A stretch of DNA of 54,182 bases, from the NCBI GenBank assembly GCA_903861715.1, contig CAIOVI010000037.1, positions 1 to 54,182 on the forward strand, in the 5' to 3' direction. A program made the position numbers and the translations under genes. A model generated the notes under the pieces. The model was not told where the DNA came from and did no database searches. It saw nothing but the letters and a program-made list of their open reading frames with translations. Of the stretch, positions 1 to 51,708 are shown piece after piece. Numbering within the stretch: position 1 is the stretch's first letter; each line of letters begins with the position of its first letter. Origin of the DNA: an uncultured bacterium. GTDB taxonomy: Bacteria > Patescibacteriota > Minisyncoccia > Moranbacterales > GWC2-37-73.

Positions 1-3000
1 TAAAATATAACGCTTGTGCATAACTTGCAGAATAAAACCTTCCAGCATTGTCTACATTAAACTTGCTCGCACCACCCACCTGCAAATCCATCAAATTCCC
101 TGTGTACCCACTCACTTCATCGACTGCAATCGAGGTTCCGTTTGCCGAACCGGCGAATTTGCCGGCGGTTGAACCGTCGAACGCTCCGCCTCCAATTGAG
201 AGCGTTCCATAATTAACCGAGGCTGTCGGAGCGCCGGAGACACTGAGTTTTCCGTAGGGCGTAGAGGTGCCGATGCCGACGTTGCCGTTCGTATTTATAT
301 ACATTGAATAAGCACCGGTAGTTCCAACGGAACCCTGATAGAATCCAATTCCTGCTTTACTATAGTCATCAAAAATTAACTTTTGACCACCAGACCACAG
401 ATAATTTCCACTTGAAGGACCCGCTACTTGCGTGCCGCCGTCTTTAACGGTCCCAAAGATAATTCCATCAGTGTATGCGCTCAGTTTGTTATCGCCCACA
501 AAGAATAGCGAATTATTTGCGGCAGCATCATAGGCTGCAAACACATAGCCGTTCTGAGAACTTGAAACTTGGAGCTTTCCGTAAGTATCGGCAACAGTAT
601 TGCCAATCACAGTAGTCCCGTTAACCTGCAAAGCCGCCCCCGGACTCGTCGTCCCGATTCCGACATTGCCGTTGCCCAAAACAGCCAAGCGAGAACCGCC
701 GGTCAGGGTGTAGGCCACACTAGTGTTGGCGTTGGTGATGGCAGCCACAGTCATGGAGGTGTCAGATCCAATAGCTGAAATTGCAACAGTTTGTCCGCCA
801 ACGGTCACCGTGTCTCCAACTTTGAAAGTGTTGGTGAATTGCGTTCCCACACCCGTAAGCGTTGTGCCACCCGCCGTGTTGGAAACTGTGCCAGGCCCCG
901 TGGTTGGTTGCGTGACCTGGAGAAGTCCTGCTGGCGCAGTGGTGCCAATGCCGACGTTGCCTTGATAATCTATAGTGACCTTTTCACTCGTCCCAGTATA
1001 AAAACGATACCCTCCTCCGTTTGCAGCACCAGTTTGAAACCAAATATCATATTTAGAATTTCTTAAAGCCCCTATCCCTTGTCCGAAGAAATTAGTAGGT
1101 GCACTATTAAATCCCAACAAAGCCCCCGTGCTAATACCAGCAATCGGGTCGGCAGTGACCACGTTTAATAGAGACAAATACCCGTTTGTGGTTGCTACAT
1201 TCCCAGAAGTGGGATTATAACCAATATTCACTAAAGGAATACTATTGGCAACATTATATCCAACGCTTAATAAATTACTCGGACTCGTCGTCCCGATCCC
1301 CACATTCCCCGCCGCCACAATGAGTCCATAGTTATTGGTTCCGCCTGAAGCATTGAGATAAAGTCCGACGTTGGTGCCAGAACCAGTGTGGGTGTTTGAA
1401 ATCTGCGCCCCATAGGTTGAAATAGCCGCCGTGGCATTGGCTCCGGTGGTCAGAATGTTGAGCGCCGTTTGCGAAGCGCCAGCTGCGGTGCCAGAAACTT
1501 GCAGATCCATGAGGTCTCCGGTGGTGAGGGTTGAAGAAGCGCCGTAAAAACCAGTTCCCGTGGTGAGCGAATTGGCCGAAAGATTGAGAGCGGCTCCTGT
1601 GGTGATGCCAGTAGCATTGGCCGAAACAATTGAAAGCGTGCCACCAGGCGTGGCGTTGCCAATTCCAATTCTCCCATTCGTGCTATCCACATTCAAAAGA
1701 GTTGTCCCAGCCGAATTGGTGAGATTAAGAGCGCTCGTGCCAGCTGCCAGCATCCAGGCTTGGGCTTGATTGAGAGCCACGCCGCCAGCTGCGTCCAAGA
1801 CAATTTTTCCAGCGTTGAAAGTTTGCAAAGTCAAATAACTGGAACCAAAAGTTTCACCAGCCGAAATGGCAACTGGTCCAGCCGAATGAATGGTGGCAGA
1901 AGTTGCGTTGGTGAAAGTCAAATCATAAGCCATGGAAACATCGCCCACCGCCATGAAGGAAGTTGGATTGTTGAAAGTTGAAGCCGCTTCAGAAATGGTC
2001 ACGATGTCAGAGCCGTTGGCATTGAGATTGAGCAAATTGCCCGTGCCATCCGTGCGAATGGAAAGTCCGCCAGCCGAGCTGCCAGGGTTGAGGTTGTAAA
2101 TTCTGGCCAGATAGTCATTGGTGGATTTGGAAACATCCAACAAATATTGTGGGCTTGTATTGCCCAGCCCCAAGCGACTGTTTGTTCCATCATAGAAAAA
2201 ATTGGAATTGTCTTGCGCCATGTTGCCAGAAGCGTTGGCATAAAGCACCGAGCCGGCCGTGACCGAAGCAATGTTGCCGCCAATGGCCATCCCACCAGCG
2301 CCGGCTGAAATGGAAGTCCAAGCGCCGGTGGAATTTCTATATTCAATAATTCCCCCATTGTCACGCATGCCATAACCGCCTGCACCCGCCGTGGCTCCCC
2401 AGTTGAGATAGGAAGACGCAGTCAAATTCAAATTGCCAAAAAGTTTGGTCAGTGTGGTGGAAGCATTGCCGATGACGGTGGTGTTGGCGCCAAGTCCAAC
2501 TGCGCCATAGCCAATCACAATCGAATTAGGATCACTATTGGTAGCGCCCCTGGAACCAGCTCCGAGATAAATGGAATTTTCTGGATCAGTCATGGCAGTG
2601 ACTCCATCAGCTTGGAATTGTCCAGCTTGATAACCAAATGCCACATTGTTGGAACCAATTGTGTTGGCAAAAAGAGCATTGCTGCCAAAAGTGCTGTTGT
2701 AATTTCCGGTGGTGTTGCCAGCCGAAGCGCCAGCGCCAACCGCTGAGTTATAAGCTCCATTTGTGAGCGCCGAAAGTGTCGTGACTCCCAAGCCAGTGTT
2801 GAAGGAGGCCTGCGTGCCAGTTCCTGACATCGTGAAATTGCCAGCGCTGGTGCCGGCAAAAAAATTGCTGCCGCTGGTTCCGCTAGCCGCAAAATTGTGA
2901 ATAAAACGATTGACGCCTTTGTAAATCACGCCCGTGGTGGCAGTGGTGGTGTCGACCATGGCCAAAGACCCCGTCAGAGAAAGTTGCTGCGCAGCCGAGG

Positions 3001-9459: not shown

Positions 9460-9489
9460 TCAGCCCAAGGCTGATCCGCCTAGGGCGGA
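9460..9489. repeat. Paired-hairpin palindromic repeat (TCCGCC family)
   Basis: Two adjacent 15-base hairpins: TCAGCC-CAA-GGCTGA and TCCGCC-TAG-GGCGGA. The copy at 51198 has the same 15+15 layout with TCCGCC/GGCGGA in both hairpins, so the first hairpin here differs by a compensated base pair. It lies upstream of gyrB in an otherwise AT-rich 188-base spacer made of AAATTT-type words. Confidence 0.7.
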
Positions 9490-50810: not shown

Positions 50811-51036
50811 GGAGAAGTGACTGAGAGGGTCGGATGCGAGTGTGCGAGCATCAGACGGGTTTCAAAAGAAACCCTGGCGGCCCGAAGTCCACAAATTTTT
50901 GAATTTACAAAGTAAATAGATATGGAGAAGTGACTGAGAGGGTCGGATGCGAGTGTGCGAGCATCAGACGGGTTTCAAAAGAAACCCGGGCGGCCCGAAG
51001 TCCACAAATTTTTGAATTTACGAAGTAAATAGATAT
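50811..51036 (+). repeat. Two 113-base units, each led by a tRNA-Ser(GCU) 5' fragment
   Basis: Unit a 50811-50923 and unit b 50924-51036 differ at only a few bases. Each starts with the first 18 bases of the tRNA at 51037 (GGAGAAGTGACTGAGAGG), ending at the D-loop GG. Then come a 9-bp stem (GTCGGATGC with GCATCAGAC), the hairpin GGGTTTC-AAAA-GAAACCC, a segment CCCGAAGTCCAC resembling the tRNA continuation, and an AAATTTTTGAATTT hairpin. No open reading frame and no anticodon arm. Confidence 0.9.
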
Positions 51037-51123
51037 GGAGAAGTGACTGAGAGGCCGAAAGTACCTCACTGCTAACGAGGCAGGGCTTAACCGCCCTCGA
51101 GGGTTCGAATCCCTCCTTCTCCT
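51037..51123 (+). tRNA. tRNA-Ser (GCU)
   Basis: 87 bases with a long variable arm (GGGCTTAACCGCCCT). Acceptor GGAGAAG/CTTCTCC, anticodon loop CTGCTAA, T arm GAGGG-TTCGAAT-CCCTC. The discriminator would be U73 rather than G73. The next three bases are CCA, the only possible encoded CCA in the window. Confidence 0.92.
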
Positions 51124-51185
51124 CCAAAAAACCAGGCTTTAATTTCGAGGCCCTCAGTTTTTTGTATTTTTGAAAAAAATAAATT

Positions 51186-51233
51186 GGAAGCATGGCCTCC
51201 GCCCAAGGCGGATCCGCCTTGGGCGGAGAGTGG
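51186..51233 (+). repeat. tRNA-Ser(UGA) 5' fragment split by a paired-hairpin palindrome
   Basis: 51186-51197 equals tRNA bases 1-12 (GGAAGCATGGCC) and 51228-51233 equals bases 13-19 (GAGTGG). Between them lies the 30-base palindrome 51198-51227 (TCCGCC-CAA-GGCGGA, then TCCGCC-TTG-GGCGGA). The insertion point is between tRNA nucleotides 12 and 13. Confidence 0.9.
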
Positions 51234-51252
51234 TTATTATTTCTTGTGGCTT

Positions 51253-51501
51253 ATGTACTACGTATATATTCTAAAAAGTAAGAAAAATAGCAAATTGTAT
51301 AAAGGATTTACTGCGGATTTACGTAGAAGAGTTGTGGAGCATAATTCTGGAAATTCTGAGTTTACAAAAAATAATAGGCCATGGAAACTTGTTTATTATG
51401 AAGCGTTTGTGAATGAAAAAGATGCAAGAAGAGAAGAAAAATTTGTAAAATCTGGAAAGGGGAGAGAAAGAATAAAATATTTATTTGAAAATCTAGAATA
51501 A
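51253..51501 (+). CDS. GIY-YIG nuclease domain protein inside a tRNA-fragment cassette
   Basis: 82 residues from the ATG at 51253. An upstream frame to 51184 only translates the tRNA fragment and palindrome. It is a stand-alone GIY-YIG domain: MYYVYILKSKKNSKLYKGF (first and second Tyr strands), LRRRVVEHN (catalytic Arg), FVNEKDARREEKFVKSG (catalytic Glu). Such small domains cut DNA in homing endonucleases and repair enzymes. It is flanked by direct repeats (ATAAATTGGAAGCATGGCC, 51182 and 51499), and the stop codon lies inside the second repeat. This placement suggests it is the enzyme of a tRNA-gene-targeting element. Confidence 0.88.
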   Translation: MYYVYILKSKKNSKLYKGFTADLRRRVVEHNSGNSEFTKNNRPWKLVYYEAFVNEKDARREEKFVKSGKGRERIKYLFENLE

Positions 51502-51504
51502 ATT

Positions 51505-51615
51505 GGAAGCATGGCCGAGTGGGTCAAATGCGAAAAAAGAGCATTTGACGGGTTTCAAAAGAAACCCAGGAACCCGAGGTCATTCAAATTTTTGCATTTT
51601 TGAAAAAAATATTAA
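51505..51615 (+). repeat. 111-base unit led by a tRNA-Ser(UGA) 5' fragment
   Basis: Starts with the first 18 bases of tRNA-Ser(UGA). Then a perfect 9-bp stem GTCAAATGC/GCATTTGAC, the same hairpin GGGTTTC-AAAA-GAAACCC as at 50811, CCCGAGGTC, and an AAATTTTTGCATTT segment. The first stem differs from the 50811 units at two pairs, one G:C to A:T and one mismatch to A:T, so pairing is kept. Confidence 0.88.
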
Positions 51616-51700
51616 GGAAGCATGGCCGAGTGGTTGAAGGCAACAGTCTTGAAAACTGTCATGGGGAGACCCATCGTGAGTTCGAATCTCACTGCTTCCT
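51616..51700 (+). tRNA. tRNA-Ser (UGA)
   Basis: 85 bases. Acceptor GGAAGCA/TGCTTCC, anticodon stem-loop ACAGT-CTTGAAA-ACTGT, variable arm ATGGGGAGACCCAT, T arm GTGAG-TTCGAAT-CTCAC. Discriminator U73, as in the other Ser tRNA here. No encoded CCA. Confidence 0.93.
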
Positions 51701-51708
51701 CAAAAAAT

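Follow-up and report, generated by a model that had tools for sequence, protein, structure and literature searches.

An 82-residue GIY-YIG nuclease gene framed by pieces of a tRNA-Ser(UGA) gene is probably the core of a minimal (~320 bp) mobile element specific for tRNA genes, built on a single-domain nuclease that would act in a homing-like manner by cleaving its target gene. It lies in the window, the 54,182-nucleotide stretch of DNA from an uncultured patescibacterium that was analyzed here, and the arrangement is found again at many different tRNA genes, in uncultured Patescibacteria and in some Bacteroidota. The reading as a mobile element draws on the association of nuclease and tRNA genes, their common orientation, exact insertion junctions, protein clades that follow the tRNA isotype, presence and absence at orthologous sites, and transfer between species.

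Anatomy of the element

The features of the tRNA-Ser(GCU) and tRNA-Ser(UGA) region of the window are, from left to right:

50811..50828, + strand: tRNA-Ser(GCU) 5' fragment, positions 1-18, first tandem module
50829..50874, + strand: two-hairpin module without ORF, copy 1 at Ser(GCU)
50924..50941, + strand: tRNA-Ser(GCU) 5' fragment, positions 1-18, second tandem module
50942..50987, + strand: two-hairpin module without ORF, copy 2 at Ser(GCU)
51037..51126, + strand: intact tRNA-Ser(GCU) (ARAGORN)
51159..51522, + strand: island common to the window and the G002 tRNA-Ser(UGA) locus, comprising the mobile unit and the left tRNA fragment (blastn boundaries)
51186..51197, + strand: left copy of the tRNA-Ser(UGA) 5' fragment, positions 1-12, GGAAGCATGGCC (sequence reading)
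51198..51227, + strand: two-hairpin palindrome TCCGCC-CAA-GGCGGA TCCGCC-TTG-GGCGGA, exactly between tRNA positions 12/13
51228..51233, + strand: continuation of the left tRNA-Ser(UGA) fragment, GAGTGG, positions 13-18
51253..51501, + strand: GIY-YIG nuclease CDS, 82 aa (Pfam PF01541, E 3e-15)
51505..51522, + strand: second tRNA-Ser(UGA) 5' fragment, positions 1-18, the right end of the mobile unit
51523..51567, + strand: two-hairpin module without ORF (GTCAAATGC..GCATTTGAC and GGGTTTC-AAAA-GAAACCC), after tRNA position 18
51568..51615, + strand: module tail and duplicated A+T-rich native tRNA upstream region
51616..51701, + strand: intact (rebuilt) tRNA-Ser(UGA) (ARAGORN, Rfam)

This is the order that the original prediction had read from the bare letters, namely a tRNA fragment split by a palindrome, a GIY-YIG gene, the same fragment followed by a two-hairpin module, and the whole tRNA, with direct repeats around the nuclease gene; sequence reading, ARAGORN, and Pfam located every part. 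The direct repeat is ATAAATTGGAAGCATGGCC (51179-51197 and 51498-51516), and its second copy overlaps the GIY-YIG stop codon. The palindrome in the left fragment measures 30 bp and is made of two 15-nt hairpins. Upstream of tRNA-Ser(GCU) stand two tandem modules of the same type as at tRNA-Ser(UGA); the ORF-less modules have target position 18 in common and differ in their hairpin sequences. They are probably products of the same process at both serine tRNAs, and it is plausible that they represent non-autonomous copies of the GIY-YIG element. Some fragment module is found at about 10 of the 36 tRNA genes of the window genome. By the ORF list and Pfam, the GIY-YIG gene is the only notable ORF of the window element and no HUH (Y1) transposase gene accompanies it, which led us to reject a REP/RAYT or IS200/IS605 element.

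Elements of the usual type begin with a tRNA 5' fragment, followed by a hairpin insert, the continuation of the fragment, the GIY-YIG ORF, a gap of 0-10 bp, and the intact tRNA. The hairpin insert is exact in most traceable cases: the first piece of the tRNA ends at position n, the second begins at n+1, and no bases are lost or duplicated. Exact junctions lie at positions 12/13 and 14/15 in Ser, 17/18 in Leu, 14/15 and 20/21 in Asn, 14/15 in Cys, 22/23 in Arg, and 35/36 in Glu elements; the Tyr insert at position 35 and the T-loop cases were seen by eye. A site in the D-arm, as originally predicted, is found in Ser, Leu, Asn, Pro, and Arg elements; in Glu and Tyr elements, and in some of those at Ser and Gln, the site lies in the anticodon loop instead. 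The accompanying idea that insertions rebuild the tRNA 5' end describes the usual type, with its intact tRNA downstream, but not a mirror type (L142, L117, L250), in which the intact tRNA lies upstream and its 3' half is rebuilt as a repeat after the GIY-YIG gene. In several Gln elements, the ORF extends into the tRNA and its stop codon is the tRNA's TAG, so that ORF and tRNA copy form one unit. An exact 323-bp unit in two tandem copies (hairpins, GIY-YIG gene, tRNA positions 1..14) is found at L196, where it runs from the start of the hairpins to tRNA position 14; L263, L141, and L109 hold further copies, in tandem or truncated.

The window protein retains its catalytic residues (Y3/Y5, Y16-x-G18, R26, H30, and E62), and the active-site Y, YxG, R, H, and E are invariant in an alignment of 14 relatives. 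The AF2 model of the 82-residue chain is a compact fold (pLDDT 88.9), to which UPF0213, the branched-DNA nuclease Slx1, and the catalytic domain of I-TevI come closest; the nearest solved sequence and fold is UPF0213 (BH0048, EF2693). Pfam and the AF2 model assign the catalytic domain to residues 1-69, followed by a C-terminal helix only, with no separate DNA-binding domain such as that of I-TevI. A phage origin was considered and rejected, as viral contigs yielded a single weak relative and phage collections nine weak matches of 33-42% identity.

Recurrence beside tRNA genes

The original prediction expected small GIY-YIG genes to be enriched beside tRNA 5' fragments, and a survey bore this out. 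We collected 121 distinct GIY-YIG ORFs with their flanks from 57 related genomes (mostly MAGs), a set that represents the highest-scoring matches rather than a random draw, and took as control 400 kb drawn at random from part of the surveyed genomes. Of the 121 best-scoring genes, 40 (33%) have a tRNA gene within 30 bp, compared with 1.6% of random positions, and the strand is shared with the tRNA throughout (40/40 within 30 bp, 53/53 within 300 bp). A tRNA or tRNA fragment is present in the flanks of 55 of these 121 best-scoring genes and in 28 of 600 random control pieces; the flanks of the other 66 best-scoring genes are free of tRNA, and some are bordered by other hairpin repeats. The window genome (G000) has six GIY-YIG genes, four of them near tRNA genes or fragments. 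Target tRNAs in the survey are those for Ser, Glu, Gln, Pro, Leu, Lys, Ile, Tyr, Trp, Asn, Cys, Ala, Gly, and Thr. The arrangement of GIY-YIG gene and tRNA fragment is far above chance and not a one-off.

On a tree of the 121 proteins, 2 members of a deep clade of 39 are linked to a tRNA, compared with 52 of the remaining 82. The isotype labels require 25 changes on this tree, against a mean of 39.6 when shuffled (range 35-44; minimum 35 of 300). Judged from the protein sequences, enzymes at the same tRNA isotype cluster together, on a tree whose single forks are weak because the alignment is short. A scan of 84,980 GTDB species with the Ser-clade alignment returned 80 loci; among the 16 nearest relatives, 14 are located 0-36 bp before a tRNA-Ser (four isoacceptors), one at a Tyr, and one at a Cys tRNA. 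They are spread over many candidate phyla, with lineage labels that include Colwell-, Falkow-, Giovannoni-, Vogel-, Magasanik-, Dojka-, Portnoy-, and Wolfebacteria. The same structure is present at a tRNA-Arg in an isolate of the Bacteroidota, Luteirhabdus pelagi (L263), and also in a MAG of the Chlorobiota (L242).

Five GIY-YIG genes (L005, L010, L021, L023, L077) that fall in a separate clade lacking tRNA are bordered by direct copies of hairpin repeats, of a CTTTGCGAGGATGTAATCATCC type and a GTCATCCTGAA..TTCAGGAT type, which suggests a pairing of nuclease and repeat that extends beyond tRNA genes. Another GIY-YIG subclade, made up of L073, L025:1426, and their tree neighbors, has a different target family; L073 and L025 are bordered by copies of a GGATCCGGTAGTGAAAATTCGAAATAA-like repeat.

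Proposed mechanism and its substrate

In the mechanism that we favor, the element sits exactly within a tRNA gene, in the D-arm (12/13 to 18 in tRNA-Ser) or, in other isotypes, in the anticodon loop. The nuclease would cleave an uninterrupted tRNA gene, and repair by recombination would then copy the element in, with the flanking tRNA sequences serving as homology arms, as in homing. The right end of the element is a copy of the tRNA 5' part, the old 5' part remaining upstream as a fragment; the mirror type carries the 3' part. Since the element supplies the 5' part, the intact tRNA lies directly downstream and the host retains a working tRNA. The hairpins in the left fragment may shield it from cutting or from recombination with the intact copy. 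Two points weigh on this proposal. First, a plain homing enzyme would be expected to cut its own carrier, as the rebuilt tRNA retains the presumed target; flanking sequence or structure would therefore have to matter, unless the enzyme acts on single strands. Second, the protein lacks a dedicated DNA-binding domain that could account for its isotype specificity.

The hairpins bear on the form of the substrate. A gapless alignment of seventeen 30-nt inserts, taken from Ser, Tyr, and Glu elements, has standard pairs in all 204 of its 204 stem cells. These stems show 36 double changes and neither a one-sided change nor a G-U (G-T) pair; the inserts had been picked by appearance, for which pairing as such is expected and the count of compensating changes is not. 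The lack of G-U pairs suggests that pairing is maintained in DNA rather than in RNA. Complementary (kissing) loops between the two hairpins were tried and rejected, as CAA/TTG fits a few members but CGA/TAG in others does not.

The main rival to homing starts from these features. It holds that the enzyme acts on folded single-stranded DNA, recognizing the cloverleaf or the hairpins that the tRNA strand forms, much as Ssn-type GIY-YIG nucleases recognize their cognate repeats, and that the element spreads via ssDNA uptake or replication and not by double-strand-break homing; we consider this a real possibility, though one that falls short of even chances. The position of the inserts in D, anticodon, and T loops, mostly exact and without deletion or target duplication, speaks for this reading, and the full, compensated, G-T-free pairing of the stems fits a DNA fold. 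Other GIY-YIG genes in these genomes are likewise bordered by hairpin repeats of their own (L005, L010, L021, L023), and UPF0213 and Slx1 as the closest folds point the same way. The two-hairpin unit, however, also occurs in genes away from tRNA, and the hairpins may be independent invaders. A folded single strand could also be the substrate within the homing-like model. In its widest form, which we hold only tentatively, the proposal describes a pervasive class of ~320-bp elements whose single-domain nuclease would recognize the folded single strand of particular tRNA genes, with the cloverleaf serving as the structure recognized, insert exactly at a loop, and carry the tRNA part that keeps the host alive. 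Such elements would be the tRNA branch of wider Patescibacteria GIY-YIG elements, each tied to its own hairpin sequence.

Genomes of this genus carry the two-hairpin unit at 2-7 places each, genes included, which rules out the hairpins as a tRNA-only feature. This dispersal makes the unit possibly an independent small repeat, one that may be used or attracted by the element. A 30-bp unit of this kind lies at window positions 9460-9489 and others at L273, L276, and L269. The dispersed unit also occurs within apparent coding regions, its 30-bp length being divisible by three, and is reminiscent of Rickettsia palindromic elements.

Movement between species and known systems

The orthologous tRNA-Ser(UGA) locus was identified via a conserved neighbor gene and compared between the window genome and four others (G001-G004). 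It is empty in G003, a third species beside those of G000 and G002, holds only the hairpin module in G004, a fourth species, and only the GIY-YIG element in G001 and G002, and contains both in G000, so that the empty site expected in some relatives for an inserted element does exist. A target-site duplication of ~46 bp was rejected as a general rule; it fits the Ser(UGA) hairpin module (G003 versus G004), but the GIY-YIG insertion shows ~20 bp.

The GIY-YIG island spans 365 bp, is 96.2% identical between G000 and G002, another species of the genus, and has sharp edges. In blastn, it begins at window position 51159 and stops at 51522, where the second fragment reaches tRNA position 18, and the surrounding 1.4 kb cannot be aligned except for the tRNA genes. 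The two GIY-YIG genes are 96.7% identical in nucleotide sequence (94% at third positions, 19/21 fourfold sites), whereas for the neighbor gene the figure is 69% (third positions, 46%; fourfold sites, 22/43). In a second case, the tRNA-Pro element L001 shares 526 bp at 98.5% identity with G003 (L001/L095), with flanks that are again unalignable. Islands of high identity in divergent flanks (G000/G002 and L001/L095) indicate recent transfer between species, and on these comparisons the element has spread independently of its flanks, in line with the mobility originally proposed for it.

These islands also bear on the reading that nothing moves here, and that a host nuclease linked to tRNA has acquired flanking repeats through tandem duplication and slippage at tRNA genes. 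Fragments and tandem modules without a GIY-YIG gene do exist in this genome, and some tandem copies are exact. Slippage is nonetheless improbable in view of sharp-edged islands that are 96-98% identical between species beside sequence at ~70%, of the patchy presence at orthologous loci, and of clades that track the tRNA isotype across families and candidate phyla.

Less probable still is a toxin or defense nuclease that acts on tRNA as RNA and for which the fragment would serve as decoy or antitoxin. Proximity to a tRNA on the same strand and a structured fragment RNA would be compatible with such a role, but GIY-YIG enzymes are not known to be other than DNA nucleases, the hairpins are free of G-U pairs, no second partner gene is conserved, and exact integration into tRNA genes together with horizontal transfer requires an account at the level of DNA. 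An ordinary group I intron with a homing enzyme can practically be dismissed: the anticodon loop is its classic site and the window genome does hold such an intron beside a tRNA-Asn 3' part, but Rfam reported three tRNAs and nothing else in the region, with no intron model match at E up to 5, and an intact, uninterrupted tRNA beside the insert makes splicing unnecessary.

The intron in question (RF00028, 57 bits; G000 contig C12, L287:131-398, - strand) lies directly before the tRNA-Asn 3' part, so a conventional tRNA-gene intron is present in the window genome as well. A tRNA-Thr-like gene in the same genome (contig C40:28016-28155, L282) carries a 63-nt anticodon-loop insertion (ARAGORN intron mode, anticodon agt) in which Rfam found no intron; it is possibly a pseudogene or a hairpin insert.

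Returning to the homing-like element, its likeness to known systems is partial. It shares with free-standing GIY-YIG homing endonucleases the catalytic domain, a gene placed beside a site that is uninterrupted in G003 (the putative cleavage target), and spread independent of the flanks, and differs from them in having no separate DNA-binding domain. Integrative elements with attachment sites in tRNA genes likewise insert into the gene and supply the part that is lost, whereas the window element has no integrase, measures ~320 bp, and usually supplies the 5' rather than the 3' part. The Ssn family consists of small, site-specific GIY-YIG nucleases for single-stranded DNA, with cognate structured repeats near the gene (the NTS repeats of Neisseria). 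The window gene is flanked by tRNA fragments and hairpins, but the putative cognate is here the tRNA gene itself, into which the enzyme gene is inserted. UPF0213-like genes of the surveyed genomes appear from the tree to form a separate clade without tRNA association, in contrast to the tRNA setting of the window gene.

In position, the parallel with SegB of phages T4 and T6, a free-standing GIY-YIG homing endonuclease of the tRNA cluster, is striking: its gene is on the tRNA strand and, in T4, stops 5 bp short of tRNA-Arg. The 3' end of T6 segB and the 5' end of the tRNA share microhomology, and tandem amplification is driven by segB (PMC13096335). SegB has 221 residues with a long C-terminal part, compared with 82 in the window protein; a single BLASTP comparison gave only a 17-residue match (E 0.009), with no likeness beyond the core motif. 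No tRNA 5' fragment or hairpin insert was seen upstream of T4 segB, and the SegB system belongs to a phage and does not rebuild the tRNA, whereas the window element is cellular and does. A 2024 study of CPR rRNA insertions described GIY-YIG genes within insertion sequences that fit no group I or group II intron and of which many are located where a stem-loop has its top or its base; it judged these genes to be outside a homing context (PMC11270868). The bacterial group is the same, and structural RNA genes are hit in both cases, but those inserts lie in rRNA (tRNA is not mentioned) and, unlike here, the target gene is not rebuilt (PMC11270868). Our literature search, with most subscription papers beyond its reach, found no work linking GIY-YIG genes and tRNA genes in Patescibacteria, and a widespread tRNA-gene parasite that repairs the gene it enters is apparently undescribed.

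Such an element would explain many orphan GIY-YIG genes of 80-90 residues in Patescibacteria, together with the tRNA debris near their tRNA genes, and would add cellular, isotype-specific, gene-repairing parasites to the known phage tRNA homing enzymes. It would also supply many natural pairs of enzyme and target with which to ask how an 82-residue nuclease achieves specificity. For annotation, ORFs that extend into tRNA genes and tRNA pseudogenes would be parts of elements.

Two further kinds of fragment array were seen. Downstream of tRNA genes (L169, L054, L177) and at L001:1-160 and L006 there are more modules without an ORF: some close with a copy of the tRNA 3' end, and others are inverted and open with the reverse complement of the tRNA T-arm. 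They have hairpins such as ATGCGAG..GCGAGCAT in common. At L002 (G000 contig C35), at least four tandem units of tRNA-Lys fragment and palindrome follow a GIY-YIG gene, and the contig breaks within the array.
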